Shown here one piece after another: positions 10 through 60,205 of a stretch of DNA of 64,000 nucleotides. Source of the DNA: an uncultured Clostridia bacterium (GTDB taxonomy: Bacteria > Bacillota > Peptococcia > Peptococcales > Peptococcaceae). The translations under genes were made by a program, and so were the position numbers. A model generated the notes under the pieces. The model had not been told where the DNA came from, searched no databases, and saw only the letters and a list, made by a program, of their open reading frames with translations. The stretch is taken from contig CALXSY010000008.1 of assembly GCA_944391285.1 (NCBI GenBank), positions 1-64,000 of the forward strand, given 5' to 3'. Numbering within the stretch: the stretch's first letter is position 1; each line of letters starts with the position of its first letter.

Positions 10-786
10 TTAGGGTATAAAACGCCTTATGAAATTTATTTCTCTAAAGTGTTGCATTTGACTTGACAATTCAAGCTTAAAAAAAATTGGCGTATGGGGC
101 ATAAACTTACTTTTCATTTCAAATAAATGCTCAAAAACAATTGTTTTTTCAGCATTGCTGTAATCCTGCAATTGACCGTTTTGCTCAAATAAGTAACCGT
201 AAATATATTTTTTGTTATTCCAGATTACATTCTGGTTGCGGGAAATCTGCTCTTGCCGACTTTTAACCCATTGCTTAATTTTTTCCCACGTTTCGTCGGT
301 TAAAATTTTTCTATTATAAGCTTCCTTGCTCGCTTCAGCATATAAACAGATTTGGTCTTCCTCATAGCATAATTCCAATTCATCCTGCCATTGCTCAAGT
401 AAATCTTTTGCCCCATCTGTAGGCGGAACTGCTCCTAAAGCAGCTAACATTTGAAATAATTCTTTTGGAAACATCTTTTGCAGTTTAATAATAAATGTAT
501 CCCTTACTTCCATTGCTTTTTCCTCTTCTTTGCCGGAAGGGACTTTGAGCAACTGTACATGTCTTTTTACACCGGTTGGATAAATATGCCGCTCCATGCT
601 ATTTGCCCAAAAATCATACATGGCTGACGCACTTCGATTTAAGCGATACTTAATTACATCATTTTCCACATATGCTGTTGCATAATACATAAACTGCTCA
701 TCAAAGTATTTTAATTCCATCATCTGGGCAACCAGTTCAGATACAGTTGTATCTCTGGATTTATATATATCTTTGTTTGTTAACAT
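10..786 (-). CDS. Unknown 258-aa protein, last gene of the PDE/ABC operon
   Basis: I do not recognise this family. The protein is soluble, with no signal peptide or membrane segment, rich in aromatic and charged residues and probably mostly helical. I place the start at 786 because AAAGGAG sits 8 nt upstream of that ATG; the in-frame ATG 24 nt further upstream has no ribosome site. The gene follows the second ABC ATPase by 56 nt, so it is probably the last visible gene of the leftward operon that begins with the MFS transporter near 8958. The stop codon is inside the window, so the gene is complete. Its place beside two phosphodiesterase/ABC/zinc-ribbon modules suggests a linked but unknown role. 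Confidence 0.75.
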   Translation of the reverse strand: MLTNKDIYKSRDTTVSELVAQMMELKYFDEQFMYYATAYVENDVIKYRLNRSASAMYDFWANSMERHIYPTGVKRHVQLLKVPSGKEEEKAMEVRDTFIIKLQKMFPKELFQMLAALGAVPPTDGAKDLLEQWQDELELCYEEDQICLYAEASKEAYNRKILTDETWEKIKQWVKSRQEQISRNQNVIWNNKKYIYGYLFEQNGQLQDYSNAEKTIVFEHLFEMKSKFMPHTPIFFKLELSSQMQHFREINFIRRFIP

Positions 787-842
787 AGATAAACTCCTTT
801 GCAATATCATACTTCACTGCATTTTCAAAAGAATTTGCTTAA

Positions 843-1577
843 TCAGAGTGAAATGCCTAAAAAGCTATTTAAATTTTCTTGTCGAAGTAATTCTTGGGTT
901 GCACCATAGCGATAAATATTTCCCTGCTTTAAAAACAAACATTTATCAAATTCAGTTACGATTTCTTCAAGATAATGAGTGACATAAATCACGGTTACAT
1001 TTTTCAAAGCCAGTTTTTCAACAATATCTAACATTTGCTTGCGTCCCACGACATCTAACCCTGTGCATGGCTCATCCAAAATCAAAAGCTGGGGATCACT
1101 CAATAATGCTCTGGCAATCAACACACGTTGCCTTTCGCCTTTTGAAAGTTCACAAAAAGGCTGCGCCGCTTTGTCTGCTATCTGCAATTCTTTTAATAAA
1201 TATTTCGCTTTTATAACGCTGTAATCAGTAATGCTGTTGTTTATGCCTAACAGACCACAGCTGCCACTTAAAACAATGTTTAATGTATTTTCTTTTCTGT
1301 AATATTTATCAAAAAAACTGCTGCTGATAAAACCAATTTTTTTTCGTAAATTAATAGTGTTTTGACCGTATTCTTCACCAAAAATTTCGACTTTTCCGCT
1401 GCTGTAACCACTAAAACCGGCAATGATGCTCAATAGTGTTGTTTTACCGCTGCCGTTTAGACCAAAAATAACCCAATTCTCTCCCCGCTTTACTTCCCAA
1501 TTTATATCATGAAGTAAATATCTGTTGCCAACTTTAAAGTTTAGATTTTGAATTTTAACAATACTTTCCGTTTGCAT
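843..1577 (-). CDS. ABC ATPase without permease (module 2)
   Basis: This 244-aa stand-alone ABC-type ATP-binding protein has Walker A GLNGSGKTT at residues 39-47, signature LSKGERQRV, Walker B LLILDEPCTGLD and a switch histidine in YVTHYLEE. The RGENWVIFGLNG block resembles the soluble YlmA/ModF-like ATPases, which work without an obvious membrane partner. No permease gene is present in the cluster. It is a clear paralogue of the ATPase at 4570-5382. It starts 10 nt after the zinc-ribbon gene and is surely co-transcribed with it. Its substrate is unknown; transport, stress-related ATPase or macromolecule remodelling are all possible. Confidence 0.85.
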   Translation of the reverse strand: MQTESIVKIQNLNFKVGNRYLLHDINWEVKRGENWVIFGLNGSGKTTLLSIIAGFSGYSSGKVEIFGEEYGQNTINLRKKIGFISSSFFDKYYRKENTLNIVLSGSCGLLGINNSITDYSVIKAKYLLKELQIADKAAQPFCELSKGERQRVLIARALLSDPQLLILDEPCTGLDVVGRKQMLDIVEKLALKNVTVIYVTHYLEEIVTEFDKCLFLKQGNIYRYGATQELLRQENLNSFLGISL

Positions 1578-1587
1578 AAACTCACCA

Positions 1588-2019
1588 TCACTCTTTTGTT
1601 ATTTCTTCGCCTATTACAATTATGCTGCCGTCGGCACAATCCAACAATTCTTTATTATCATGCAGTGGAATATTATATCCGTTTTCATCATGAATACCGA
1701 TTTGCCGTTCATGCCATGAAATAATTTCACACACTTTACCGATATTTAGCCTTCTGGTTGAAGCATTATCCTGACGATCCGGGTAAACATTAAATCCTAA
1801 ATTATCAACAAAATATACCGCATTGCGATATATTTCCGGTTCAACCCCATACTCAATCATATCGCAGTTTTCGCAAAAAATTTCCAAATTAGCGGTTTCA
1901 ATATCCCCAAAGTCTAAAAGACGAACCTTTAATTTGCCACCACAATATTTACATACACATCTTTTACTACGCGATCTTAACTCTTGTACACGTTCTTCGG
2001 AAACATTTTTGGGCAGCAT
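1588..2019 (-). CDS. Small zinc-ribbon protein (module 2)
   Basis: This 143-aa protein has two CxxC knuckles (C23/C26 in CVCKYCGG and C49/C52 in CENC), which is a zinc-ribbon arrangement. It is followed by the motif EPEIYR, shared with its paralogue at 4199-4570. The C-terminal half (a region ending near VCEIISWHERQ) also aligns with the paralogue. An AAGGAG ribosome site lies 9 nt upstream of the ATG. It sits between the second phosphodiesterase and the second ABC ATPase. I recognise no named family; a metal-binding adaptor for the neighbouring ATPase or enzyme is a guess from context only. Confidence 0.75.
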   Translation of the reverse strand: MLPKNVSEERVQELRSRSKRCVCKYCGGKLKVRLLDFGDIETANLEIFCENCDMIEYGVEPEIYRNAVYFVDNLGFNVYPDRQDNASTRRLNIGKVCEIISWHERQIGIHDENGYNIPLHDNKELLDCADGSIIVIGEEITKE

Positions 2020-2061
2020 TACATTCAGCTCCTTATGGAATAAATATATTTAAATATGTAC

Positions 2062-2092
2062 ATCAAAGGTAATAAAATATATTACCTTTGAT
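2062..2092 (-). other. Intercistronic hairpin
   Basis: A perfect 13-bp inverted repeat (arm ATCAAAGGTAATA, 5-nt loop) lies between the second phosphodiesterase and the downstream zinc-ribbon gene. No T-run follows it on the minus strand, so it looks like an mRNA-stabilising or processing stem-loop rather than an intrinsic terminator. Confidence 0.6.
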
Positions 2093-2115
2093 TAATGTTA
2101 CAAACTTAATTTAGT

Positions 2116-4125
2116 TTATTTTAAAATCTGATAAATCGGTGCACCTTCACATTGAGCAGGCATTCTGGTACCCAATAAGGTAGCAATAGTCGGAGTTACA
2201 TCCACATGATGAACTACACGAGGAGTTTTGAAGTTTTCTTTAATGCCAGGACCAGCAGCTGCGAAAATCGACATACAAGAAGTGCCGATTGCACCTTCAA
2301 CTGTAGACAGTGAATCCGCATGATCCATTGTATAGCCTTCGGCAGCCAGATAAACAATGTCACCACAGCTTGGTCCACCCATGCCTAAAAGTACAGCATC
2401 TTTGTTTCTCATTGCTAACTGAGCCATACGCATACCAGTCATTGGAGATTTAGCTGACAAAATCTGCGTCATGATTTCTTCTTCTACTTGCCATTTATCT
2501 GCAGGATCGACAATACCTTCAACACCATCGTGATTGTCGCGACCTTTCAGATTGATCCATACTTCTCCCATGCGCCATATAACGGCTTTGGTCTTGCTCC
2601 AGTCAATATCTACAACGCCATCTTCATTGGTTTTTAATACAGTAAAGCCCCAGTCAACCATTTCTTTAGCGTTGAAGTTGTCATCACCGGTCAACAATGT
2701 TGACATATGGTATTCCGGACAAGTCTGACCATGGTCAGATACGATCATAATCGTCCAGCCATCATCAATCATATCCAGATAATGACCAATGTAACGGTCA
2801 GTTTGTTTGTAAACTTCTCTAAATAGTCCTTGAATAGTTTCAGCAGATAAAGAAGAGTTACCTCTTTTTAAGAATTGAACAATCATATGACCCTGCAAAT
2901 CAACATTGTGGAAATGAGAAAAGACCATTCTAAAGCCATGTTCTTTTATTAAATACTTAATAGAATCTGCTGTCCATTCTCCGGCAACTTCCCAAGTAGC
3001 ACGCATGCATTCAGAAACCAACTGAATATCTTGACCGCCACCTACAGAACAAGGCTGCGGATAGCCAACGTTTTGAACAACTTCTGCCAGCAAAGATTTA
3101 GGATACCATAAAGTATCATTATGGAAATCCATAGCTGCAGAAATCCACATTCTAATATGAGAGCCATCTTCTGCCATCTCTAAAATACGCATATTCCGAT
3201 TAACTTTGATTTTCTCATCAGTTTTTTCAACAATAGCATCATCAATGACATCTTTAACATAAACCCCGCTCTTTAAGGTAGCAATTGGTTCCAATTCTTT
3301 TTTACTTAGGAAGATCTGCAAGGTATCATAAACACCTTGTTCATTTTTCAAAATCAAGCAAGGACGGTTAATTAACCCTTTAGAATGAATTATTGTGCAT
3401 TCTTTAGCATCAGCCGGAGCTTTAGCCCAACCACTTGCTGGTTTAATCGGAGAGTAAATAACATCCATAGGAACTTTACTCAATATCTCAGCATCGCCTA
3501 CGCCCAGCATAGGAGTAGCTTTCCGAGTTTGACCGCCGCAAAGTGTTGCCAAAACATCGTCTAACTCATTTTCCTCAAATTCCATACCGGTGATAAAGCA
3601 TGGAACATTACTGTCAGCAGCAGCTTTCGCTCTGAATTTTACATCAGGAGTTTTTTCATCGGCAATTAAAATTTTCTCGCCTTCTACAACTGCATTACCA
3701 CAGTTAACGCCTTCAGGCTGAGTACCGTCAATAACATAAAGATTTTCGCTGTCAGAGCTTGGCGGCCAAGCAGATCCAGCCCAATGCCAAACCAAAGTTT
3801 TTATGCCAGCTTCAGCGGTTACGTTCCACATTTGCTCTGCTAAGCAATTGCGTGAATCGAAATTGTAGCCTGGCTCACCAATTTCACCGGCTTTGCGGCT
3901 AAAACTGTGTACGCTGTGTACAAATGGGCTGGCACCGGTAGCTAATGTAGTCCACATTGGTGGAGTAACAGTCGGCTGACCGCCTATCATCGCTAAATTT
4001 TCACGGGCTGCACCGCGTCTTAAAAACTCAGCCAAGTTAGGCATGATTCCTTCATCTAAATATTGTTGAGTGATTTTAGGATCCATACTGTCAATACCCA
4101 TTACAAATACTTTTCTGTCATTCAT
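2116..4125 (-). CDS. Alkaline-phosphatase-superfamily phosphodiesterase/pyrophosphatase (module 2)
   Basis: This 669-aa protein belongs to the type I phosphodiesterase/nucleotide pyrophosphatase group of the alkaline phosphatase superfamily. Visible motifs are the first metal aspartate D12 in GIDSMD, the probable nucleophile T54 in PTVTPPMWTTLATG, the metal pair in VSDHGQ, and a late DH pair in GYTMDHADSL. It has no signal peptide, so it acts in the cytoplasm. It is paralogous over its full length to the protein at 5404-7425. An AAAGGAGAAG ribosome site precedes the ATG. Substrates in this superfamily include phosphodiesters, phosphonates and sulfate esters, and sequence alone does not decide among them. 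Confidence 0.85.
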   Translation of the reverse strand: MNDRKVFVMGIDSMDPKITQQYLDEGIMPNLAEFLRRGAARENLAMIGGQPTVTPPMWTTLATGASPFVHSVHSFSRKAGEIGEPGYNFDSRNCLAEQMWNVTAEAGIKTLVWHWAGSAWPPSSDSENLYVIDGTQPEGVNCGNAVVEGEKILIADEKTPDVKFRAKAAADSNVPCFITGMEFEENELDDVLATLCGGQTRKATPMLGVGDAEILSKVPMDVIYSPIKPASGWAKAPADAKECTIIHSKGLINRPCLILKNEQGVYDTLQIFLSKKELEPIATLKSGVYVKDVIDDAIVEKTDEKIKVNRNMRILEMAEDGSHIRMWISAAMDFHNDTLWYPKSLLAEVVQNVGYPQPCSVGGGQDIQLVSECMRATWEVAGEWTADSIKYLIKEHGFRMVFSHFHNVDLQGHMIVQFLKRGNSSLSAETIQGLFREVYKQTDRYIGHYLDMIDDGWTIMIVSDHGQTCPEYHMSTLLTGDDNFNAKEMVDWGFTVLKTNEDGVVDIDWSKTKAVIWRMGEVWINLKGRDNHDGVEGIVDPADKWQVEEEIMTQILSAKSPMTGMRMAQLAMRNKDAVLLGMGGPSCGDIVYLAAEGYTMDHADSLSTVEGAIGTSCMSIFAAAGPGIKENFKTPRVVHHVDVTPTIATLLGTRMPAQCEGAPIYQILK

Positions 4126-4198
4126 AGTTATCTTCTCCTTTTTAAATAAATTTTTGCAAATTTTATAGCACTTTTATAAAATTTAACTTTTATTAATC

Positions 4199-4570
4199 TT
4201 ACTCATTTTCGTCTTGTACATAATCAAAATTGCACAGACGATCTTTTTTTAATCCTGAGGCGTCTAAAATTTCTAATTTGCGGAAATTCCAACTTAAGGT
4301 TTCACAAACTTTAGCAATATTCAACATCAAATTTCTCTCATCTTGCTCCATTTCAACAAAATAATCAAATTCAACCTTGTAAACGAAATCTTTTGCCAAA
4401 CGATAAATTTCCGGCTCAGTTCCAAATTCAATTTTTTGACATCTATTGCAGTAAAGTTCTAAACCGGAACCTCCATATTTGTTGTAAATAATAATTCTTG
4501 GCTCTAATTTACCACCGCAGCTTTTACATACACAACGTTCAGCTCGTTGCAGTATTTTATCCGGGTTCAT
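4199..4570 (-). CDS. Small zinc-ribbon protein (module 1)
   Basis: This 123-aa protein has CxxC pairs at C15/C18 (CVCKSCGG) and C41/C44 (CNRC), followed by the EPEIYR motif seen in the 1588-2019 product. Its ATG overlaps the stop of the upstream ABC ATPase as TAATG, so translation is likely coupled. Gene order in this module is phosphodiesterase, ATPase, zinc-ribbon. In the second module the ATPase and zinc-ribbon genes are swapped. Function is unknown; partnership with the ATPase is inferred from the coupling and from the duplicated association. Confidence 0.75.
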   Translation of the reverse strand: MNPDKILQRAERCVCKSCGGKLEPRIIIYNKYGGSGLELYCNRCQKIEFGTEPEIYRLAKDFVYKVEFDYFVEMEQDERNLMLNIAKVCETLSWNFRKLEILDASGLKKDRLCNFDYVQDENE

Positions 4571-5382
4571 TAATTGCTTACCTGCCTTTCATTGCTATTT
4601 TCCTTATTTAGATCCAATTGAATAAAAAAGCGATCGGCATACCAAATACCATGGACATCATGTTCTAAAAAAGAACTGAGCGTTCTGTCATTAAGTATAT
4701 CCCGCAAATCACCTGCGGTATGGATAGTACCGTTTTTCATAAGCGCAACCTTATTGAAAATAGGCAAGATCTCTTCAGTTTGGTGGGTAACATAGACGAT
4801 GGATTGAACATAATTCTGTGCCAAATCTTTTAATAAATATAAGAATTTTTCACGTGCTACAATATCCAATCCATCACAAGGTTCATCTAAAAGCAAAACT
4901 TCCGGTTCTCCCATCAATGCCCGTGCTATTAACACTAACTGCTGCTGACCTTTGGAAAGCATTTGATATGGATAACGAGCTTTTCTTTCTAAGCCAAATA
5001 AACGAAGTAATTTTTTTGCTTGACGCACTTCAAAATCGCTTACTTCATTATGCAGCCCTAATGCAGCTTGTTTGCCGACCAAAACCATTTTTAAAACGAT
5101 TTCCTGGTGATAATATTGATTAAAAAATGAGGTGCTGACAAAACCAATTTTTTTCATTAATTCCCGGCGATTTTCAACACTTATCTCTTGATTGAATAAT
5201 TTAATATTGCCTTGAGAAGCATTTTTGTATCCCGAAATAATGCTTAATAAAGTAGTTTTGCCGCAGGCATTTAAACCAAATAACACCCAATTTTCTCCTC
5301 TACTGACCGTCCAGTTGAGATCTTTTAAAATGTATTTATTGCCTGCTTTGGCTGCAACATCTTGCAATTCAATTAATTTCAT
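4570..5382 (-). CDS. ABC ATPase without permease (module 1)
   Basis: This 270-aa permease-less ABC ATPase has signature LSKGQQQLV, Walker B VLLLDEPCDGLD and switch histidine YVTHQTEE. Walker A reads GLNACGKTT (residues 36-44), with Ala-Cys where Gly-Ser is usual, and this may alter the nucleotide loop. A roughly 30-residue C-terminal extension is absent from the paralogue at 843-1577. It starts 21 nt after the upstream phosphodiesterase stop and overlaps the following zinc-ribbon gene. As with its paralogue, no membrane partner is encoded nearby and the substrate is not predictable. Confidence 0.85.
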   Translation of the reverse strand: MKLIELQDVAAKAGNKYILKDLNWTVSRGENWVLFGLNACGKTTLLSIISGYKNASQGNIKLFNQEISVENRRELMKKIGFVSTSFFNQYYHQEIVLKMVLVGKQAALGLHNEVSDFEVRQAKKLLRLFGLERKARYPYQMLSKGQQQLVLIARALMGEPEVLLLDEPCDGLDIVAREKFLYLLKDLAQNYVQSIVYVTHQTEEILPIFNKVALMKNGTIHTAGDLRDILNDRTLSSFLEHDVHGIWYADRFFIQLDLNKENSNERQVSN

Positions 5383-5403
5383 TATTTTTACCTTTACTTT
5401 TAC

Positions 5404-7425
5404 TCAGCCAATTATACCGCCTTCAACATCATGAGGCATTCTATTGCCTACCAAATGGCATAAAGTAGGAACAATATCTACATTACGAATCGGACGGTTG
5501 ATAAATTCACCTTTCTTTAAGCCCATGCCTGCCAAAACACACAAGCAATTTAAAGAATAGCCATCATTAGTGACGCATTGTAAACTATTGCCATGATCAA
5601 AACCAAAATCTTTTGTCAACTGGAAGAAGATATCACCACAATGATCTCCACCCATACCGATAGTCTCCATCTCTTCTCTTGTCATACAGAATGCAACCAC
5701 ACGTTTGCCGGTATTGGGATCACGATAAGCGTACAAATCGCTGATAATTTGCTGAACTAATGCATCATAATCTTTAGGATCCACGATTCCTTCCGGATCA
5801 CGCCCTTTTAATTTGATGTACACATGAGATGTTCTGTGCTGAATTGCTCTGGTATGCGCCCAATCTATTTTGTAATAGCCCTCAATACCTGGAACAGCAA
5901 TTAGAGAAGTATAGCCTAACTGCTCAAAAACACCAGCATTAATTCCAGATAATTCACCTATACCTGGATTTTCACAGTCTACGGAACGAGGAATAGCAGC
6001 ATGGTCAGAGCAAACAGCTACACAAGTGTTTTCATCTAAATATTTCAAGACAGTAGCTAAATATTTATCGTTAATCTCGTAGATTTTATCAATAATTTCT
6101 CTGCGGCTTTGCCATTGAGGATGACGCCCTTCGCTTGCTTGCTCAATATAGTGATGATTAATCAAATCAATGCTATGCAAATGAATATAAAATAGCTGCC
6201 AATCAGGATTAGAATCCAGCAAATATTCGGTAGCTCTCATGTGCCAATCGTTTATCATATCAAATGACTCTAATTCCATAGCGTCACCTATAGGAGTTTG
6301 ACGATCGATAGTTGCAAAATAGCACATTGGTCCCACATTATCCATTAATTCCTTAATGACCTCTTTTGGATAACCATAACTGTCATCTTGAGTATTAAGC
6401 ACATGAGAAATATAAAATCTACCATAGCTTCCATCCGGTTTCATTTCCATGTTGCGGATATAGTAAGCAACTTTTACATCCTCATCATCAATTGTAAATT
6501 CATCAAATATTGGTTTGGACCATTCACCCATTTTGGCGCTTCCCAAAGGAGTGGGATTCTTTTTGTTTTTATACAAAGTGACAGTATCATAATTTTCGCC
6601 GGTAAACAAAGCATAACGTCTTTGCAAAGCATTATTCATAGTGATTACTGCCTCTTTAGCATCTTTGGGAATTTCAAATGCCCAGTTTTCTGCATCTTTC
6701 AGGGGAGTATAAAGGGTGTCAGTACTGTCAGAATTAGATGCTTCTTCTGCGCTTAAGCCTTTAATAACAAATGCTTCTGACTCTAACGGCATATTAACTG
6801 TAAAATGGCTGCCTGTCATGGAGGCTATCAAATCTTCCTTGCTCATTGTCATATTGTCTTCGGCTTTACCGAATTTTTCTACTTGATCGTTATAAACTAC
6901 ACAGTCACTGGAGCTTTGGTTGACTTCATGAGGAATATCGCGGATAGTAGGATAATCATCTTTCATAACTACAACTTTTTGAAATTGTACTGATGAGCGT
7001 AAGAACGGAACGACTCCGGTTCCATCAACAAATATGTTTTTAGAGCCATCTATTCTGTTTGGCCAAGCTTCACAGTAATTGAGCATGATGCACTTTTTGC
7101 CTTCATCTTCAAAAGCTTCCCAAATAAGCTCAGATTGAACTCTTCTGGAATCCCAGTTTATTTCGGTAATACCTAAGGATTTTCCTAAGGTATGATTTAA
7201 GAAACAAGTAACACCATGGGTTCTGGGATAATTACCGGTAGCTAATGTTGCCCAGTTAGGTGGTGTAATTGTCGGTAACACACCAAGCATATCCATAGAT
7301 TCACGGGCAACTCCCTGATCTAAGATTTTTTTAAGATTAGGCATTTTGCCTTCAGCAATCAACCTGCGGCACACCAATGGATCTGCTCCATCAAGTCCAA
7401 TCATCATTGCCCTTTTTTTGCTCAT
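5404..7425 (-). CDS. Alkaline-phosphatase-superfamily phosphodiesterase/pyrophosphatase (module 1)
   Basis: This 673-aa cytoplasmic enzyme is of the type I phosphodiesterase/nucleotide pyrophosphatase class. It has D12 in GLDGADP, probable nucleophile T54 in PTITPPNWATLATG, metal ligands in CSDHAA, and conserved late motifs GGDHCGDIFF and FGFDHGNSL. It is paralogous to the 2116-4125 product, which has the same N-terminal motif spacing. GGGAGG precedes the ATG. It lies 129 nt downstream of the MFS transporter gene, so a plausible model is import of a small ester by the transporter followed by hydrolysis. That model is inference from context. Confidence 0.85.
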   Translation of the reverse strand: MSKKRAMMIGLDGADPLVCRRLIAEGKMPNLKKILDQGVARESMDMLGVLPTITPPNWATLATGNYPRTHGVTCFLNHTLGKSLGITEINWDSRRVQSELIWEAFEDEGKKCIMLNYCEAWPNRIDGSKNIFVDGTGVVPFLRSSVQFQKVVVMKDDYPTIRDIPHEVNQSSSDCVVYNDQVEKFGKAEDNMTMSKEDLIASMTGSHFTVNMPLESEAFVIKGLSAEEASNSDSTDTLYTPLKDAENWAFEIPKDAKEAVITMNNALQRRYALFTGENYDTVTLYKNKKNPTPLGSAKMGEWSKPIFDEFTIDDEDVKVAYYIRNMEMKPDGSYGRFYISHVLNTQDDSYGYPKEVIKELMDNVGPMCYFATIDRQTPIGDAMELESFDMINDWHMRATEYLLDSNPDWQLFYIHLHSIDLINHHYIEQASEGRHPQWQSRREIIDKIYEINDKYLATVLKYLDENTCVAVCSDHAAIPRSVDCENPGIGELSGINAGVFEQLGYTSLIAVPGIEGYYKIDWAHTRAIQHRTSHVYIKLKGRDPEGIVDPKDYDALVQQIISDLYAYRDPNTGKRVVAFCMTREEMETIGMGGDHCGDIFFQLTKDFGFDHGNSLQCVTNDGYSLNCLCVLAGMGLKKGEFINRPIRNVDIVPTLCHLVGNRMPHDVEGGIIG

Positions 7426-7554
7426 GATAATAACCTCCCTAAATGTTTATATATATTAATTTTTTCCCAACATTGATTGTTGCACAAATCTGCTTATTGT
7501 TGTTGAGTATAAATGTTTGCTGTCATTTATTTTTTTAAGATTAAAAGTTAATCT

Positions 7555-8958
7555 TTACATAGTTGCTTCGTTGGTTTCCACAACTTCCGGATCACAGGTG
7601 TGGCAATTCATAGCATCAATATTCTGCAAAGCAGTTCTTCTGCCAAAGCAACCAATAACCACAGCTGCTATAACCCAGAACAAGGCATTGATAATATTAA
7701 CACCTAACCAACCAAAAGTGCTGAAGGCGGCAACAGGTATAGCTGCCGCAACAAAGGCTATTAAAAGCTTCTGAGTACCATAAATATATCCTGTCGCAGA
7801 ACCACGAACAGATGTTGGGAAAGATTCGGGGATATAAGTCATTAACAGAGCCATGGCACCTGCAGAAAACAGTGTTTTGATAAATTGCATTGCACAATAT
7901 ACCCACACATTATTTGCTAAACCTATACCAACAAACATAACTGCAGCTCCCATACTATATATGAAAATCGGTATAGTACGCCCACCTTTATCACTGAATA
8001 ATGCCGATATAAGTTCGCCCAGTGGCTGACCAAAAGCTGCCAGAGCTCCAGCTGATAAAACAGTTGCTAAGGGGAATCCGATCTGTACTAAAAACGCATT
8101 ATTATATGCACTCATCATATTATTGCCGCAACCTAAAGCGTAAGCAAAAATGAAACATACAATAGTTTGTTTAGCTTGACGTTTATCAAACATTATTTTC
8201 ATTTGAGAGGAGAAGCTAATTTTTTTGTAAGCAGCAACGCTCATTTGATAGTTTTTATATGCATCAGACATATCACATTCAAATCCGAGACATTTCTCCA
8301 TCACTTTTTCGGCTTCAGCTACGCGACCTTTACTGATGTACCAACGTGGAGATTCAACTAAAAATACAACTGCAAAAGGAACCAAAATTAACATTAAAGC
8401 GCCGATACCTAAAACAATTCTCCAGCTTTCAGCGGTTTCAACAGCTATTGTCGAGGCAAGTATAGCAACAAAAGGTATGCTGAAAGTACCAATACCGAGA
8501 ATCATTGATTGATATTTACCGCGTTTCTCTAAAGGTAACATCTCAGAAATATACGCAATAGCAACAGTACAAGCAGCCATAGTACCAAAACCGGTGCAGA
8601 ATCTGCTTGCTTCCATCAAAAATAAATGGTGTGGTTGCCAGAGAGCATTAGCTAAACTGGCAAGAGAAAAGATAGTTATATTAATAAGTACAGCTTTTTT
8701 TCTTCCCCATTTATCAGCCATTAAACCCCCGGCAATACTGCCTAAAAAAGAGCCAAAGAAAAACAAAAAATTTAACATAGCCAACTTCTCATTTGTTATA
8801 CCATAGTTTTCTTGTAAAATAGGGGTAACAATTTGAAATAAGGACATATCCATCAAATCAAATGCATAAGTTAAAGCAGCAATAACGACAAAAAACTTCT
8901 GTGTTTTCCCCAGCTTATAACCATCAAAGTAAAGCGTCGTTTTAACCTTTTCTGCCAT
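7555..8958 (-). CDS. MFS transporter, first gene of the operon
   Basis: This 467-aa, 12-helix major facilitator carries the loop 2-3 motif GGLMADKWGRKKA and the central VESPRWYISKGR motif of the sugar-porter and aromatic-acid symporter branches. It is therefore probably a proton symporter for a small organic anion or metabolite. I chose the ATG at 8958 because AGGAGG lies 9 nt upstream; the in-frame TTG upstream overlaps that ribosome site. It heads a leftward operon with two phosphodiesterase modules and is divergent from the LysR gene at 9328, the usual arrangement for an inducible uptake/catabolic unit. The substrate is unknown. Confidence 0.85.
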   Translation of the reverse strand: MAEKVKTTLYFDGYKLGKTQKFFVVIAALTYAFDLMDMSLFQIVTPILQENYGITNEKLAMLNFLFFFGSFLGSIAGGLMADKWGRKKAVLINITIFSLASLANALWQPHHLFLMEASRFCTGFGTMAACTVAIAYISEMLPLEKRGKYQSMILGIGTFSIPFVAILASTIAVETAESWRIVLGIGALMLILVPFAVVFLVESPRWYISKGRVAEAEKVMEKCLGFECDMSDAYKNYQMSVAAYKKISFSSQMKIMFDKRQAKQTIVCFIFAYALGCGNNMMSAYNNAFLVQIGFPLATVLSAGALAAFGQPLGELISALFSDKGGRTIPIFIYSMGAAVMFVGIGLANNVWVYCAMQFIKTLFSAGAMALLMTYIPESFPTSVRGSATGYIYGTQKLLIAFVAAAIPVAAFSTFGWLGVNIINALFWVIAAVVIGCFGRRTALQNIDAMNCHTCDPEVVETNEATM

Positions 8959-9300: not shown

Positions 9301-9305
9301 ATGGG

Positions 9306-9333
9306 GGAGTTATATGAATGGAGTTATATGAAT
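9306..9333 (+). repeat. Tandem 14-bp duplication of ribosome site and start codon
   Basis: The sequence ggagttatatgaat occurs twice with no gap (9306-9319, 9320-9333). Each copy contains GGAG and an ATG. The first ATG (9314) opens a 5-codon frame, MNGVI, whose TGA at 9329-9331 overlaps the lysR ATG at 9328 as ATGA. The duplication thus places a coupled mini-cistron in front of lysR. Confidence 0.8.
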
Positions 9334-10221
9334 ATTGAACACTTATACTACCTTCAAAAAGTCTTAGAATATCAATCTTTTTCTTTAGCAGCACAAAATC
9401 TTTTCACTTCCCAACAAAACCTCAGCAATATTGTTGCTCATATCGAAAAAGAGTTTAATTGCGTAATCTTCAAACGCTCTCGCAAAGGCATAAAACTAAC
9501 TGCTGAGGGAAAAATTCTTATGCCTAAAATTAATAATCTGCTTTTTTGCTACGAAGATTGCCTAAATACCTTTAATGATACCAGCTATTCTACAAAATTA
9601 GCGATTAATACTAATATTTCCTCAACAAACCTTTGTTTTTTTATCGAAGATATCTCCCAGTCAAACTTTAATGTTACCATTTATGAAGAGTTTTCCAACA
9701 AAAGAATAATTGACAAAGTGCTGCGTAATGACTGTACCTATGGTTTGCTTTTGCTCTATCACTCACTGGATGCAGCATTATCAAAAAAAATTGATGTACA
9801 TGTTATTGCCGAATTTGACGCATGTTTAATGGTGCCCTATGACGATCCTTTAGCTAATCTGGACGGCATTACTCTGGAACAATGTCTCTCCTATCCCCTA
9901 ATTTTAGACAACGGAAATGTTATTAAAGAAAAGGTAATTGATTATAATATTCACAAGCAAAATATGGCTGTTTCTTTAAACATTTCATCTATTATCAATG
10001 CAAGCAACTTTAATTACATTACTTTGATTCTTAAGCGTCATGGTTATGGAATAGCGGCAAAAAGAACCTCTACACAACAAATTCACCAAATACCTATTAT
10101 TGATATTCCCAAAGCTAATTTAGCTGTTATTTACAACAAAAGCTTTCAACCGCAGAAAAAAGATTTACTTTTGTTTAAATACCTTGAGAAATATTTTAAT
10201 TTTAACAGCAATTTCTTTTGA
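9328..10221 (+). CDS. LysR-family transcriptional regulator
   Basis: This 297-aa regulator begins MNIEHLYYLQKVLEYQSFS, the typical winged helix-turn-helix start of LysR proteins. The helix-turn-helix spans about residues 4-62 (including SLAAQNLFTSQQNLSNIVAHIE), followed by a periplasmic-binding-protein-like effector domain to the C-terminus. An in-frame ATG at 9301 would add nine atypical residues, so I prefer 9328. The gene is divergent from the MFS/phosphodiesterase operon and is its probable regulator. The effector is unknown but is presumably the transported or hydrolysed compound. Transcription ends at the strong hairpin at 10279. Confidence 0.9.
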   Translation: MNIEHLYYLQKVLEYQSFSLAAQNLFTSQQNLSNIVAHIEKEFNCVIFKRSRKGIKLTAEGKILMPKINNLLFCYEDCLNTFNDTSYSTKLAINTNISSTNLCFFIEDISQSNFNVTIYEEFSNKRIIDKVLRNDCTYGLLLLYHSLDAALSKKIDVHVIAEFDACLMVPYDDPLANLDGITLEQCLSYPLILDNGNVIKEKVIDYNIHKQNMAVSLNISSIINASNFNYITLILKRHGYGIAAKRTSTQQIHQIPIIDIPKANLAVIYNKSFQPQKKDLLLFKYLEKYFNFNSNFF

Positions 10222-10321: not shown

Positions 10322-10405
10322 TGCCGAAGGTGGGACTCGAACCCACACGCTTTTGACGGCGGCGGATTTTGAGTCCGCTGCGTCTGCCAATTCCGCCACT
10401 TCGGC
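10322..10405 (-). tRNA. tRNA-Leu (anticodon CAA)
   Basis: The minus strand folds as a class II tRNA. Acceptor stem GCCGAAG pairs with CTTCGGC. The anticodon stem GCGGA/TCCGC encloses loop CTCAAAA with anticodon CAA (Leu, UUG codons). A long variable arm and the T-loop GTTCGAGTC follow. The 3' CCA is not encoded. A consensus promoter lies just upstream and a strong terminator just downstream. Confidence 0.95.
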
Positions 10406-12635: not shown

Positions 12636-14204
12636 TTAAACAGGCAGAATTATTTCCGGCTGTTTAAATAGAAATTTAATAATAATATTCTTTTCCTCAG
12701 TCAATTCTATTCGCTCTATCAAACTGACTAAAAACTGTCTTTCGCTAAAAAAATTCTGCCGGAAATCCTCTATTATATCTTTTACATTTATCTCCGGTCT
12801 TGCCGTCTCTCTTTTTTCAAGCGCTGTTAGTCTTTCCTCTGCTCTCTGGCGTTTTTGTTCGATTTTTTGCAATATACGCTTAAAGTCCGCCTCACTTAAA
12901 AAATCATTCAGCTGATCTAAATATATTTTATCCATTTTGTCATTTAAGCTGTCGATCTCCTGCCGCAAAGCCTTAATTTCCGCAGCAGAAGCAGCGTCTT
13001 TTTGCCACTTGTCAATAATTTTCTGCGCCAGAGGTTCTAATTGTTCAAAGGCGAAATATTGCCAGCATATTTCTTGCACTCTCGCTATCACTGCTTCATT
13101 AACGGTCTTTTCTTTAATAAAATGACCGCTGCAAGCCCCGCTTTTGCTGAAACGCTGATAAGTGCGGCAAACAAAATAAAGAATATCTTCGCCTTGGGTA
13201 TTCTTTCTGTTTATCACCGCCAGAGGATAGCCGCATTCATGGCAAAAAATCAAGCCTTTAAGCAAGTATTCATAGGTACGGCTGCGGGTATATTTGCGGC
13301 TGTTTAAAAGAAATTGTATTTTATGAAATGTTTCTTTATCAATTATTGCTTCATGGGTATTTTCAACCACCAGCCAATCTTCTTTGGCTTGACGCAGACA
13401 TTTTTTAGACTTATAGCTGGCTTTCACCGTTCGTCCTTGCACCATGTTGCCGATATAGGTTTCGTTTTGCAGCATAGCAGAAATCCGCTCACTGCTCCAT
13501 AAGCCACTGTAAATGCCTCCTCGGTTCTTTCTGCCGCAATACATTCCGGGAGAAGGAATCTGCTCCTCATTGAGCTGTACGGCAATTTGCCGGCAGGATA
13601 ATCCCTCCGAGGCATAGGCAAAAATGCGTTTAACTATTTCTGCTGCCTCCTTGTCAATGACAATTTTGTTTTTTTCGCTCGGGTGCATTTTATAGCCATA
13701 CACGGGCTTAGCGCCGATAAATAACCCCTTTTTTTGTTTATCGTGCTTAACCGCTTTAATTTTTTTGGAAATATCCTTCGCATACATATCATTCATGATA
13801 GCTTTAAAGGGCGTTATATCATTGACAGTTGAATCAGTTCCGGTGTCAATGCCGTCTAAAAGGGAGATATATCTCACCTCATGCTCCGGAAAATACCGCT
13901 CCAGATAATGCCCCGTTAAAATATAATCTCTGCCTAAACGGCTGAGGTCTTTGGTGATGACCATATTTACCCTTTTTGCCTCAATGTCGCCCAACAGGCG
14001 TTTAAAGCTCGGGCGGTCAAAATTGGTGCCGCTCCAACCGTCGTCTATGTATACTGCGTGAATCTTCAGCCCTTGTTCAGCGGCAAATTCCTTTAGCAAA
14101 GATTGTTGATTAGTAACGCTTTGGGACGGTCCTTCATTTTCATCTTCCTTGGACAAGCGAATATATAGCGCTGCTTGATAATCCTCGGGATTTTCTATTT
14201 TCAA
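12636..14204 (-). CDS. Large serine recombinase (SpoIVCA-type) of the sigK element
   Basis: This 522-aa large serine recombinase has an N-terminal resolvase domain (about 10-155) with catalytic S18 in YIRLSKED and the conserved arginines of DLSRLGRD. A Recombinase domain follows (about 160-270, with GAKPVYGYK), then a zinc beta-ribbon with CHECGYPL and a later CSGHF, and a coiled-coil-rich C-terminus. The start is TTG with GGGAGG 9 nt upstream. The stop codon abuts the att arm. It is in the same orientation as sigK, and its role is very likely site-specific excision of the element to rebuild sigK. B. subtilis SpoIVCA is of similar class and size. Confidence 0.95.
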   Translation of the reverse strand: MKIENPEDYQAALYIRLSKEDENEGPSQSVTNQQSLLKEFAAEQGLKIHAVYIDDGWSGTNFDRPSFKRLLGDIEAKRVNMVITKDLSRLGRDYILTGHYLERYFPEHEVRYISLLDGIDTGTDSTVNDITPFKAIMNDMYAKDISKKIKAVKHDKQKKGLFIGAKPVYGYKMHPSEKNKIVIDKEAAEIVKRIFAYASEGLSCRQIAVQLNEEQIPSPGMYCGRKNRGGIYSGLWSSERISAMLQNETYIGNMVQGRTVKASYKSKKCLRQAKEDWLVVENTHEAIIDKETFHKIQFLLNSRKYTRSRTYEYLLKGLIFCHECGYPLAVINRKNTQGEDILYFVCRTYQRFSKSGACSGHFIKEKTVNEAVIARVQEICWQYFAFEQLEPLAQKIIDKWQKDAASAAEIKALRQEIDSLNDKMDKIYLDQLNDFLSEADFKRILQKIEQKRQRAEERLTALEKRETARPEINVKDIIEDFRQNFFSERQFLVSLIERIELTEEKNIIIKFLFKQPEIILPV

Positions 14205-23824: not shown

Positions 23825-25120
23825 TTACATTTCTTTAACTTTTTGAAATGCTCTTTTTGCCGCCTCGACAGCATTATTAATATCCTCTTCAGTATGAGCG
23901 GCAGATACAAACCAGCACTCAAACTGAGACGGCGGCAAATAATAGCCCTGCTCCAGCATGGACTGGAAAAAGACCTTAAATTGAGCAGTATTGCTGCTTT
24001 GCGCCTGCTCATAGCACTCTACCAGGCTTTCGGTGAAAAATACTGTTAATAAGGAGCCGAGATAGTTGATGCTCACCTTAACTCCCGCTTCGTCAGCGGC
24101 TTGCTTTAAGCCCAGTGCCAAAAGGGAAGTTAAACGCTCAAGCTTGGTATAAATTTCTTCGTCCTTCAGTTGGTTTAAAAGAGCCAAACCGGCTGCCATT
24201 GCTAAAGGATTGCCCGATAAAGTACCGGCTTGATACACCGGACCGGCAGGAGCAACCTGGCTCATGATTTCTTTTTTACCGCCGTAAGCTCCGACCGGCA
24301 AACCACCGCCGATGATTTTGCCTAAGCAAGTCAAATCGGGAGTAATGCCGTAAAGCTTTTGCGCGCCGCCGATGGAAGCTCTGAATCCGCTGATAACCTC
24401 ATCAAAAATCAGCAGTGCTCTGTATTTAGTACATAATTCTCTTAATCCGGTTAAAAATCCTGCTTTTGGCGGCACTAAACCCATATTGCCGGCAATCGGC
24501 TCAACAATTACTGCCGCTATTTGCTCAGGGAACTGTTTAAATAAAGCTTCTACACTGATTAAATCATTATAGCGAGCATTTAAAGTGTTATTGGCAATGC
24601 TTTCCGGCACACCGGGAGTGGAAGGCACGCCCAAGGTCAAAGCACCGGAGCCGGCTTTAATCAACAGATGGTCGGCGTGACCATGATAACAGCCTTCAAA
24701 CTTAACAATCTTATCTCTCTTAGTGTAGGCTCTGGCTAAGCGCAAAGCACTCATGGTTGCTTCCGTACCGGAGGAAACCATTCTCACCATTTCGACGGAA
24801 GGCACGTTTTCGCAGATAAACTTTGCCATTTCATTTTCAATCTCGGTAGGAATACCAAAGGTAGTGCCGGTATTAATAGCTTCTTTCAAAGCTTCGGTTA
24901 CTGCCTGCGGCTTGTGTCCCAAGATTAAGGGACCCCAGGAGCAGATGAAATCGACATATTCGTTATTATCCACATCAATAATATGGGAACCGTTGCCCTC
25001 TTTCACAAAGATAGGAAAATCCCCTACCGCTTGGAAGGCTCTGACCGGCGAGTTAACCCCGCCGGGGATTAATTTCACTGCTTCTTGATATAATTTCTTC
25101 GAATTTTCGAATGAACGCAT
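23825..25120 (-). CDS. hemL: Glutamate-1-semialdehyde 2,1-aminomutase HemL
   Basis: This 431-aa PLP enzyme of the C5 tetrapyrrole pathway converts glutamate-1-semialdehyde to 5-aminolevulinate. Class III aminotransferase motifs are [35 protein letters not shown] and the PLP lysine in [17 protein letters not shown]. It sits in a compact operon behind hemB (13 nt gap) and ahead of miaB. Length is normal for the family. Confidence 0.97.
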
Positions 25121-25133
25121 CTTCTATTCTCCT

Positions 25134-26120
25134 TTATCCTTGCTTTTTGAGCCACAAAGCCGCATCAACAGCATGGTAGGTAATAATTAAATCACTGCCG
25201 GCTCTCTTTAAGCCGGTTAACATTTCCAAAACAGTTTTTTCTTCATCAATCCAGCCGTTTAAAGCCGCAGCTTTAATCATGGCATATTCGCCGCTGACAT
25301 TGTAGGAAACGATTGGCTGGGTGAAATTGGCTCTCATCAGGGCAATCAAATCCATGTAAGCCAATGCCGGTTTCACGATGATATAATCACAGCCCTCTTC
25401 GACATCCAAGCGAGCCTCTGCTAAGGCTTGTCTGGCGCCGCTGGCCGGATCCATTTGATAAGTTTTGCGGTCACCGAAGCGCGGAGCCGAATCGCCCGCT
25501 GCTTCTCTAAACGGTCCGTAAAAGGCGGAAGCATATTTAACCGAGTACGCCATGACCGAAACATCAGTAAGACCTTCTTTATCCAAAGCCTGGCGCAATG
25601 CCCCGATACGACCGTCCATCATATCGCTGGGAGCCACCACATCGGCTCCGGCTTTGGCATAGCTGACCGCCGTTTTGGCTAATAATTCCAAAGTAGGATC
25701 ATTTAAAATTGTGCCGTCGTTGCTTACCAAGCCGCAATGACCGTGGCTGGTGTATTCGCACAAGCATACATCCGCCATCAAAACTAAGTCCGGATATTTG
25801 GCTCTGCTTTGGCGCAAAGCTTTTTGGACTATGCCGTCCTCAGCATAAGCACCGCTGCCTACCTCGTCTTTTTCAGCCGGGATACCAAAGAAGATTATAG
25901 CTTTAATGCCGGCATTTACTGCTCTCTCAATCTCCTCATCAACTCGATCCAAGGAGAATTGATAAACTCCGGGCATCGAAGAAACTTCGTTTTTGATATT
26001 TTGTCCTTCGATGACAAAGATAGGATAAATAAAATCGTCAGCTGTTAAGCGAATTTCAGCATTTAACGCTCTGATATTTGCATTTTTTCTCAATCTGCGC
26101 ATTCTGGTCTGCGGAAACAT
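25134..26120 (-). CDS. hemB: Porphobilinogen synthase HemB
   Basis: This 328-aa enzyme condenses two 5-aminolevulinates to porphobilinogen. The zinc-type active-site cysteines are in DVCLCEYTSHGHCG, and the Schiff-base lysines are in SVKYASAFYGPFR and YIIVKPALAYMD. I place the start at 26120 (MFPQTRMRRLR), where AAGGAG lies 8 nt upstream; the frame continues three codons further. It lies 12 nt after cobA-hemD in the operon. Confidence 0.96.
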   Translation of the reverse strand: MFPQTRMRRLRKNANIRALNAEIRLTADDFIYPIFVIEGQNIKNEVSSMPGVYQFSLDRVDEEIERAVNAGIKAIIFFGIPAEKDEVGSGAYAEDGIVQKALRQSRAKYPDLVLMADVCLCEYTSHGHCGLVSNDGTILNDPTLELLAKTAVSYAKAGADVVAPSDMMDGRIGALRQALDKEGLTDVSVMAYSVKYASAFYGPFREAAGDSAPRFGDRKTYQMDPASGARQALAEARLDVEEGCDYIIVKPALAYMDLIALMRANFTQPIVSYNVSGEYAMIKAAALNGWIDEEKTVLEMLTGLKRAGSDLIITYHAVDAALWLKKQG

Positions 26121-26132
26121 CACAACCACTCC

Positions 26133-27647
26133 TTATTTTTGAAAATACTCAACCAATGCCTTTACCAATCCGTCAATAGTATATTCATCTGCCGTGATAT
26201 CAACCTTTAAGCCTAAACTTTCGGCAGTTTTGGTGGTGATAGGTCCAATCGAGGCGATAGTTACACCCTCTAATAATTCCCGGCGCTCACCTATAAGCTC
26301 CATAAAGTTGCGCACGGTGGAAGAGCTGGTAAAGGTAATGACATGAATCCCTTTCTCTTCCATTTTTTCTAACAAAAATTGATTGTCGCTGTCTGCTTTT
26401 ATTGTTTCGTAAGCTACGACTTCGTTTACTTTCAAGCCCATTTCTTTTAAGGTTGTAACCAAAACATCACGGGCGATATCTGCTCTGGGCAATAAGACCT
26501 TTTCCCCTGCCTTGACCAAGGGAGTTAATGTTTCGGCTACGGCTTCTGCCCTAAATACCTCCGGCATAACAGCTACCTGCAAGCCCTTGTCCTCCAAAAC
26601 TTCTTTGGTCTTAGGACCGATAGCGCAAATCTTCGCCTTGCCTAAAAAGCGAATGTCGGCTTTTAACTCCTTCATTTGCTCAAAGAAAAATTTTACGCCG
26701 TTTACGCTGGTAAAGATGAGCCAATCATAGCTACTAGCTTCAGCGATTGCCTTATTTAACGGCTCTATATCAGCGGGTTTTTTAATAGCAATAGTGGGAT
26801 ATTCCCAAGCCTCTGCTCCTAAAAGCTCTAATTTTTCGCTTAAAACACTGGCTTGCTCTCTGGCTCTGGTTACCAAAATGCGTTTGCCGAATAAAGGCTT
26901 CTGCTCAAACCAAGTTAAGGTATCCCGTAAGGTTACTACTTCACCGACAATGATAATAGCCGGCGAAGTCAATTTTGCTTTGGCTACTTCTTCCACAATA
27001 TTTTCCAATCGACCGGTTACCACCTGCTGCTCTGGACGAGTGCCCCAGCGAATAAGAGCAATGGGAGTTTGCGGGGATTTGCCGTTAGTGACAAGCTGAG
27101 AAACGATTTTTGCCAAATTGCCGACACCCATTAAAAAGATTAAAGTGCCGGGATCAGTGGCTAAGCGCGCCCAGTTGATGCTGCTGTCTTCTTTGGTCGG
27201 ATCCTCATGACCGGTGATAACGGTGAAAGTCGAGGTGAAATCTCTGTGTGTTACCGGAATACCGGCATAGTTAGGCACGGAAATAGCGGAAGTAATGCCG
27301 GGCACTACTTCAAATTCGATGCCGTGAGCACGCAAAACTTCTGCCTCTTCACCGCCCCTGCCAAAGACATAAGGATCGCCGCCTTTTAAGCGGACCACAT
27401 ATTTGCCTTTTAAGCCTTCGTCAACCAATACTTGATTGATCTCATCTTGAGTTAAGGTATGGCGGTCGGGCGATTTGCCCACATAAATCAGCTCTGCATC
27501 ATTTCTTTTATAGGAGAGCAAGCGGGGATTTGCCAAACGGTCATACACGATGACATCGGCTTTTTGGATGCATTCCAAACCTTTGACGGTGATTAATTTA
27601 GTATCTCCCGGACCTGCTCCGATTAAATATACTTTACCTTTGCTCAT
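26133..27647 (-). CDS. cobA-hemD: Uroporphyrinogen-III methyltransferase / uroporphyrinogen-III synthase fusion
   Basis: This 504-aa bifunctional protein has an SAM-dependent uroporphyrinogen-III methyltransferase at residues 1-245 (VYLIGAGPGD, VVRLKGGDPYVFGRGGEE, GIPVTHR) and a HemD uroporphyrinogen-III synthase domain at about 250-504 (ILVTRAREQ, FTSVNGVKFF, FTSSSTVRNF). It closes the macrocycle and then makes precorrin-2, committing carbon to siroheme or cobalamin. Such fusions are common in Clostridia and Negativicutes. Its ATG overlaps the hemC stop. Confidence 0.96.
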   Translation of the reverse strand: MSKGKVYLIGAGPGDTKLITVKGLECIQKADVIVYDRLANPRLLSYKRNDAELIYVGKSPDRHTLTQDEINQVLVDEGLKGKYVVRLKGGDPYVFGRGGEEAEVLRAHGIEFEVVPGITSAISVPNYAGIPVTHRDFTSTFTVITGHEDPTKEDSSINWARLATDPGTLIFLMGVGNLAKIVSQLVTNGKSPQTPIALIRWGTRPEQQVVTGRLENIVEEVAKAKLTSPAIIIVGEVVTLRDTLTWFEQKPLFGKRILVTRAREQASVLSEKLELLGAEAWEYPTIAIKKPADIEPLNKAIAEASSYDWLIFTSVNGVKFFFEQMKELKADIRFLGKAKICAIGPKTKEVLEDKGLQVAVMPEVFRAEAVAETLTPLVKAGEKVLLPRADIARDVLVTTLKEMGLKVNEVVAYETIKADSDNQFLLEKMEEKGIHVITFTSSSTVRNFMELIGERRELLEGVTIASIGPITTKTAESLGLKVDITADEYTIDGLVKALVEYFQK

Positions 27648-28582
27648 TGGGTCAACTCCTGTCTGATTTCTGCTAATATTTCATCGGCACCGAGAGCGGT
27701 CAGTTTTTGGGCTAAACTGCGACCGATCTCTTCGCTTTCTGCTTTTTTTCCTGCCAATATTTCCTTGATTAAACGGCTGCCGTCTAAAGAAGCCACCAAG
27801 CCATTTAAAATTAAGCTATCGTTTTCGATAATGCCGTATGCGGCGATAGGAATCTGACAGCCGCCTTCCAGCTCATTTAAAAGAGCCCTTTCGCTTCTAA
27901 CACAAATAGCGGTATCGTCATCGTTAATTAAAGCTAACAATTTTAAAATTTCCGCATCATTACTGCGGCACTCAACACCGATAGCTCCTTGGCTCACTGC
28001 CGGCAAGGAAACCTCCGGCGCCAAATATTCCGTAATTTTTTCGCTCCAGCCCATGCGGATAACTCCTGCGGCGGCTAAAATCAAAGCGTCGAAATTTTCT
28101 TCCTCCATTTTGCGCAAGCGAGTGTTTAGATTGCCGCGGATATCGCAGATTTCTAAATCCGGGCGCAAATGTTTGATTTGCGCTTTGCGGCGCAAGGAAC
28201 TGGTGCCGACCTTTGCTCCTTGAGGCAAGGTACTAAAAGTATAGCCTTGGGGAGAAATAATCACATCCCGGGGGTCTTCTCTTTTTAAAATGGCGCCGAT
28301 AGTTAAGCCTTCAACTAATTGGGTCGGCACATCTTTCATGCTGTGCACTGCCAAATCAGTTTCATTTTCTAACATTGCCACTTCCAATTCCTTGGTAAAT
28401 AAGCCTTTGTCGCCTACCTTTGCCAAGGAAACATCTAATATTTTATCGCCTTTGGTTTTTACGGCAACAGTTTCAAAGGTGTATTCATCACTTATCGCTT
28501 CCAAGCGTTCGATGACATGTTTAGTCTGCCATAATGCCAAAGCGCTGTCTCTGGTGCCGACTTTAATTACTCGTTTGCTCAT
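27644..28582 (-). CDS. hemC: Hydroxymethylbilane synthase HemC
   Basis: This 312-aa enzyme polymerises four porphobilinogens. Motifs are VGTRDSALALWQTKHV at the start, DLAVHSMKDVPT, KVGTSSLRRKAQ, DIRGNLNTRL and the dipyrromethane-cofactor cysteine in LEGGCQIPIAAYG. I use the ATG at 28582 (MSKRVIKVG), preceded by GGAGG at a slightly long 12-nt spacing. The frame runs 25 codons further into hemA but those residues are not family-like. It overlaps the hemA 3' end by 20 nt and the cobA-hemD start by 4 nt. Confidence 0.96.
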   Translation of the reverse strand: MSKRVIKVGTRDSALALWQTKHVIERLEAISDEYTFETVAVKTKGDKILDVSLAKVGDKGLFTKELEVAMLENETDLAVHSMKDVPTQLVEGLTIGAILKREDPRDVIISPQGYTFSTLPQGAKVGTSSLRRKAQIKHLRPDLEICDIRGNLNTRLRKMEEENFDALILAAAGVIRMGWSEKITEYLAPEVSLPAVSQGAIGVECRSNDAEILKLLALINDDDTAICVRSERALLNELEGGCQIPIAAYGIIENDSLILNGLVASLDGSRLIKEILAGKKAESEEIGRSLAQKLTALGADEILAEIRQELTQ

Positions 28583-60158: not shown

Positions 60159-60205
60159 ATTGCTAAAATCACCTTAAGATAATATTTAAAGAAAGGAGTT
60201 TTTTT

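Follow-up and report, generated by a model that had tools for sequence, protein, structure and literature searches.

Known sulfite reducers that do not activate sulfate obtain their sulfite from organosulfonates (PMC10591310, PMC6453916), and organosulfonate respiration runs through isethionate sulfite-lyase, a glycyl radical enzyme (PMC6453916, PMC6386719). Here we describe an operon of an uncultured Clostridia bacterium (Peptococcaceae) that probably represents two of many import-and-cleave modules of a sulfite-reducing anaerobe. The route that we propose would resemble the isethionate sulfite-lyase route in that sulfite would be released in the cytoplasm from an imported organosulfur compound and would feed DsrAB, sulfate activation being unneeded. 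On the other hand, it would rely on an unrelated two-metal hydrolase fold instead of a glycyl radical enzyme, and its modules come with tens of paralogues, a thioredoxin pair and an ATPase/zinc-ribbon set.

With respect to the enzymes, phosphonoacetate hydrolase (PhnA; PDB 3szy, TIGR02335), PafA and NPP share the fold, the two-metal ligands and the threonine nucleophile. The enzymes described here differ from them in their length (about 670 aa), which includes a large insert spanning roughly 130-380, in an asparagine at Thr+3 that is mostly replaced, in an invariant tryptophan at Thr+4 and in a cysteine (Cys175) found in 92/98 aligned sequences. Choline sulfatase and the other formylglycine sulfatases (PF00884) belong to the same alkaline phosphatase superfamily, but our enzymes are of the PF01663 type and have Thr as nucleophile; choline-O-sulfate is a candidate substrate for the choline-linked ones. 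As for the ATPases, their best NCBIfam model is ModF, and proteins of the ModF/YlmA type are likewise ATPase domains without a permease. SufC and PhnK/PhnL are soluble ABC ATPases that serve enzyme or cofactor complexes. None of these is known to be accompanied by a zinc ribbon or the protein that we call X258, which are the fixed partners of the ATPases described here.

The window, i.e., the whole stretch of 64,000 nucleotides analysed, lies on a single contig of a genome of 1.70 Mb. All the genes named in the first-pass annotation of this DNA were found on the minus strand (Table 1), transcribed in the order MFS carrier, PDE-B, ATPase-B, zinc-ribbon-B, PDE-A, zinc-ribbon-A, ATPase-A and X258. 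The latter had been given as a 258-aa protein encoded within 843-8958; it is present, but it is 266 aa long and its gene (810-10) lies just outside that interval. Since its relatives measure about 312-372 aa and the contig ends at base 1, X258 looks C-terminally truncated. The ATPases had been described as permease-less, and the operon indeed encodes no permease. The carrier, which matches MFS_1/Sugar_tr in Pfam, is aromatic-acid/H+ symporter-like (top NCBIfam model TIGR00895, 119.1 bits, under the cut-off of 418.55), and its relatives adjoin the enzyme in loci L072, L087, L112, L151, L152, L160, L162 and L164.

Table 1. Features of the operon, its surroundings and the dsr cluster of the same genome
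Feature	Coordinates	Strand	Remarks
LysR-family regulator	9301..10221	+	divergent from operon; PF00126 3.2e-14, PF03466 below cut-off
MFS carrier	7555..8958 (or 8967)	-	ATG at 8958; PF07690 1.3e-33
PDE-B enzyme (P0002), Asn at Thr+3	5404..7425	-	PF01663 9.4e-25; metal ligands and Thr54 kept
Soluble ABC ATPase B (P0006), without permease partner	4570..5382	-	PF00005 4.4e-28
Zinc-ribbon protein B (P0005)	4199..4570	-	CxCxxC...CxxC invariant among 50 relatives
PDE-A enzyme (P0001), Met at Thr+3	2116..4125	-	PF01663 1.5e-21; metal ligands kept
Zinc-ribbon protein A (P0004)	1588..2019	-	no family match; AlphaFold pLDDT 88.9
Soluble ABC ATPase A (P0003)	843..1577	-	PF00005 3.8e-29; alignment
X258 protein (P0008)	10..810	-	no family match; probably truncated at contig end
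dsr cluster of window genome	G000:C2:96332-101292 (L187)		CobB/DsrN-like, DsrA, DsrB, 72-aa DsrD-sized protein, DsrC

Both enzymes pass PF01663 (77.8 and 88.4 bits against a curated cut-off of 23), and their sole other Pfam match, PF01676, is sub-threshold. In an alignment of 98 sequences, the two-metal ligands and the Thr nucleophile of the superfamily (D12, T54, D420, H424, D474, H475 and H611) are kept in 96-98, with W58, the Trp at Thr+4, invariant. The Asn at Thr+3 is known from NPPs and, as an alignment with it shows, is also carried by phosphonoacetate hydrolase. It is present in 14 of the 98 sequences, including P0002 but not P0001, and replaced in 84/98. The AlphaFold model of PDE-B (pLDDT 82.8) has the alkaline phosphatase fold, with residues 168-233, Cys175 among them, not reliably modelled; its nearest Foldseek matches were PafA, PhnA, SPAP and NPP (E 6e-12 to 1e-7). 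Membership in two described families was rejected: the PhnA equivalog gave 22.5 and 27.3 bits against a cut-off of 407.55, and the enzymes have no PF00884 match and a Thr where formylglycine sulfatases have Cys/Ser. As noted before us, signal peptides are lacking, and the fold's first strand stands at the very start of the sequence. A predicted cytoplasmic location of the enzymes is supported, as is their pairing with importers. A plasmid search with the enzyme gave no match.

PF01663 relatives act on phosphorus compounds, and we know of no activity for any enzyme of this family; both points count against organosulfur substrates. The family assignment and the nearest solved relatives (phosphonoacetate hydrolase, PafA and NPP) call for weighing whether these proteins scavenge organophosphorus compounds after import, e.g., glycerophosphocholine, as phosphodiesterases, phosphatases or phosphonate hydrolases of the cytoplasm, their link to sulfite reducers (see below) being incidental. 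Choline-kinase-like and choline TMA-lyase neighbours at some loci would suit such a role. However, we regard it as unlikely, considering the loss of the Thr+3 Asn in most of the family, carriers of the DASS/CitT class, a dedicated thioredoxin system and the presence of DsrA in every sampled genome with the enzyme; furthermore, tens of private phosphate-scavenging systems would be odd in a genome of 1.7-3 Mb.

Both ATPases match PF00005, and P0006 keeps the Walker A, signature, Walker B and H-loop residues in the alignment. Their identification as molybdate ModF was rejected (147.1 and 170.3 bits against an equivalog cut-off of 459), as was that of an ABC transporter minus its permease, since no permease recurs at the loci. 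The zinc-ribbon and X258 proteins match no Pfam or NCBIfam family above cut-off, and no membrane-spanning stretch was found in either. The zinc ribbon is predicted to bind zinc, C21, C23xxC26 and C49xxC52 being invariant in 50 relatives; comparison with the PDB, by sequence and by fold (AlphaFold model), returned nothing significant.

A PF01663 search of the window genome recovered one broken copy of the enzyme and 21 copies of nearly full length (about 670 aa). Among the latter, C3:66964-68955 lacks the first of the metal ligands and its start may be broken. One copy, at C4:26065-27162, is fragmented; the family therefore shows gain as well as loss. The close ATPase family counts seven copies, including the two in the window, at 41-56% identity to P0003, the next best match in the genome being only 33% identical. 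The zinc ribbon likewise has seven copies, each adjacent to an ATPase (7/7), and for all but one of these pairs (the exception is C16:13454-14662) an enzyme gene lies no more than a few kb away. The four copies of X258 all adjoin ATPase/ribbon pairs. Since the seven pairs are all adjacent here and the arrangement repeats in other genomes, the co-clustering is not due to chance.

Most enzyme genes of the window genome are accompanied by a LysR gene and a carrier of the DASS/CitT type (PF03600/PF00939), one carrier matching the Na:sulfate symporter family PF00939, and do not have the accessory set; LysR genes adjoin most enzyme copies in the relatives as well. This indicates that the basic module consists of regulator, carrier and enzyme, while the ATPase set is an optional extra. 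The three-gene unit proposed in the first-pass annotation was a correct observation but an understated one, and its description needs widening, as the pair is optional (7 pairs per 21 enzymes in this genome). Likewise, an MFS carrier is present here as described, whereas the usual carrier of the modules is of the DASS/CitT type. In one locus (L025:3412-8868), a single enzyme gene is followed by three DASS-type carriers and then by an arylsulfotransferase-like gene (PF05935, 8916-10358). In another (L026:9843-12178), a GcvT-like protein and a 431-aa protein without Pfam match are encoded beside X258, between two ATPase/ribbon pairs.

The operon had also been read as a duplication of the whole set with its last two genes swapped in one copy. 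Our data do not support this, and two old module types stand side by side instead. A recent local duplication is rejected, as P0001 and P0002 share only 29% identity and both have closer relatives at other loci of the genome (C16:37160 for P0001, 51% identity; C4:11935 for P0002, 49%). In the ATPase tree, gene order divides the modules in two types with a single change, on a weakly supported branch. The ATPase-then-ribbon type comprises 8 modules, none with X258 and mostly with T-P-P-N-W enzymes, and the ribbon-then-ATPase type 45 modules, 37 of them with X258. Since the window holds one module of each type, the apparent swap is old.

We then considered the home family, represented by 13 genomes of six genera. 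Matches to the ATPase profile were found in 13/13, with 1-13 copies each, and the enzyme copies per genome range from 2 to tens; for one genome (G003) only the best 19 of 92 first-look candidates were scored. In stretches around the matches, in the window genome and others, we counted 61 ATPases of the module type, genes being called as simple longest ORFs. A zinc ribbon lies within 1.5 kb of 52/61 and an enzyme within 3.5 kb of 50/61; X258 is near 40/61, which makes it the third accessory of the set, a carrier near 44/61 and a LysR gene near 39/61. Several of the misses fall at the ends of contigs or are probably due to collisions in gene calling, and two misses are orphan ATPases (G014 and G020). 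About 34 relatives of X258 stand next to ATPase/ribbon pairs in other genomes. Moreover, the distances among the ATPases correlate with those among the zinc ribbons (r=0.65), the neighbouring enzymes (r=0.45) and X258 (r=0.73), and in each case 0/2000 permutations reached as high a value. A genome-neighbourhood search, which the first-pass annotation had suggested, thus finds the three families together in other genomes, and their frequent proximity and correlated divergence identify them as a conserved unit. Outside the home family, the whole set is found together in G380 (L151), with two enzymes, zinc ribbon, ATPase, X258, thioredoxin, MFS carrier and LysR regulator. Altogether, ATPase, zinc ribbon and X258 make up a protein system that recurs in about 50 loci and of which two proteins match no known family.

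When a collection of genome contigs was scanned with one ATPase, all that it yielded were distant ATPases (23-31% identity). In der-plsY-gpsA-DUF1232 clusters (genes named from their sequences) of several relatives (L100-L106), a related orphan ATPase occurs without a zinc ribbon, and this distant ATPase may be the parent of the set. Such an ATPase outside the modules, and the many enzymes that occur without the set, would also fit a separate system that travels with these loci and is unrelated to the enzyme chemistry, e.g., for regulation or translation, in which the orphan ATPase may have its role too. We find this doubtful, given the adjacency to an enzyme in 50 of the 61 cases, the correlated divergence of ATPases with both enzymes and zinc ribbons, and the restriction of the zinc ribbon to 5/399 genomes of a phylum-wide sample, all of them enzyme-bearing.

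This sample of 399 genomes was an even draw from the one phylum surveyed, in which the modules were found only in bacteria equipped for breathing sulfite. The enzyme (E<=1e-120) is present in 16/399 and DsrA in 54/399, and 16/16 enzyme genomes have DsrA, the test having left out G020, which carries an enzyme copy. The hypergeometric probability of this overlap is 1.5e-15, a genome-level value inflated by kinship among the sampled genomes; by family, DsrA occurs in 6/6 families with the enzyme versus 21 of at least 139 overall (about 6e-6). That 38/54 DsrA genomes do not have the enzyme counts against organosulfur substrates. In most home-family genomes tested, a PF01077 search found a DsrA/DsrB-like pair, and the DsrA, DsrB and DsrC of the window genome score 534.5, 465.4 and 125.5 bits, all above the curated cut-offs. 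Upstream in their cluster stands a gene resembling CobB/DsrN, and DsrB and DsrC are separated by one of DsrD size. ATP sulfurylase (Sat) and APS reductase (AprA) are absent from 13/13 home-family genomes, and from several other enzyme carriers.

On the other hand, six enzyme-bearing genomes possess Sat and AprA, and simple hydrolysis to sulfate would suit them, which speaks against sulfite as the product. The enzymes might accordingly be ordinary hydrolytic sulfatases of a new type, for which the organic part is the nutrient and sulfate is waste, or is reduced only where Sat and AprA are at hand; three loci with an arylsulfotransferase-like gene in the vicinity of the enzyme (contig C10 of the window genome, L117 and L166) and a choline TMA-lyase adjoining the enzyme, which would make choline the nutrient, are in line with this. 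We hold such sulfatases to be improbable, since downstream catabolic enzymes do not recur in the home-family loci, and the strict link to Dsr in genomes unable to activate sulfate, as well as the thioredoxin pair, would be left unexplained.

Outside the home family, a thioredoxin-like protein with a CHVC-type motif and/or a thioredoxin reductase of about 404 aa is encoded within 2.5 kb of the enzyme in 13/15 loci. Within the home family, few loci have a dedicated thioredoxin pair next to the enzyme, which argues against thioredoxin coupling. Several outside-family loci additionally encode choline TMA-lyase with its activase and an acetaldehyde dehydrogenase (each above cut-off), shell proteins of microcompartments, BCCT carriers or proteins like trimethylamine methyltransferase. 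The TMA-lyase, BCCT and methyltransferase neighbours fit, and suggest, choline-O-sulfate or sulfobetaine as the substrate in those genomes.

Taking these observations together, we favour the reading that the modules free sulfite from imported organosulfur compounds and feed it to DsrAB, to which we assign a probability of about 0.5. From the gene context we infer both the organosulfur nature of the substrates and the direction to sulfite. The LysR protein would turn on the carrier gene, and the carrier (MFS here, DASS/CitT elsewhere) would bring an organic anion or zwitterion into the cytoplasm, where the enzyme, with its two metals and threonine nucleophile, would strip off the sulfur group, which would reach DsrAB/DsrC as sulfite. 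As no further catabolic enzymes recur at the home-family loci, the cell probably exports the carbon skeleton or puts it to use elsewhere. The arylsulfotransferase-like genes mentioned above also speak for organosulfur substrates. Sulfate esters, which were among the substrate classes first proposed, fit this reading, whereas the context favours organosulfur compounds and sulfite reduction over the phosphodiesters proposed with them.

Reductive chemistry appears likeliest, because the home family is without Sat/AprA and the enzyme usually has its own thioredoxin/thioredoxin reductase outside it; thioredoxin-coupled cleavage would explain both the redox partners and the missing sulfate activation. 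As in PAPS reduction, a thioredoxin-type thiol may receive the sulfuryl group of the substrate by way of Thr54, with release of the group as sulfite. The ATPase, zinc ribbon and X258 might act as a soluble ATP-driven helper of a subset of the enzymes, in maturation, metal loading or product release, although their task is a guess. A more specific proposal, in which two-metal enzymes of the alkaline phosphatase fold are a new class of respiratory entry enzyme and hand the sulfuryl group of imported sulfate esters to such a thiol, giving sulfite without ATP-costly activation through tens of substrate-specific paralogues and a soluble ABC-ATPase/zinc-ribbon/X258 machine, is speculative and rather unlikely to hold in full.

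The first-pass annotation knew of no described pathway of this composition, and neither did we find one: among the titles and abstracts listed on enzyme expansion, DsrAB sulfate-ester respiration, choline-O-sulfate in these bacteria and a steroid-desulfating gut organism, none describes the system. Neither outcome that the annotation had named as refuting it was obtained. If our reading is correct, anaerobic habitats would have a large unrecognised enzyme family as a further source of sulfite and thereby of sulfide, and this would explain what sulfite reducers without sulfate activation can live on. The reading predicts that culturable apparent relatives of Desulfitobacterium/Desulfosporosinus draw both their electron acceptor and their choline from choline-O-sulfate or a similar compound.

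Elsewhere in the window, a tetrapyrrole run read from the sequences as hemA-hemC-cobA/hemD-hemB-hemL (23825-29864, minus strand) fits a sulfite-reducing organism, as DsrAB requires siroheme. The gene of a TAXI-type binding protein and, after it, that of a fused TRAP permease, also named by reading the sequences (58702-62227, plus strand), likely encode another organic-anion importer. Finally, a large serine-recombinase-like gene (12636-14204, minus strand) near a tRNA-Leu (10322-10405) may be the trace of a mobile element.
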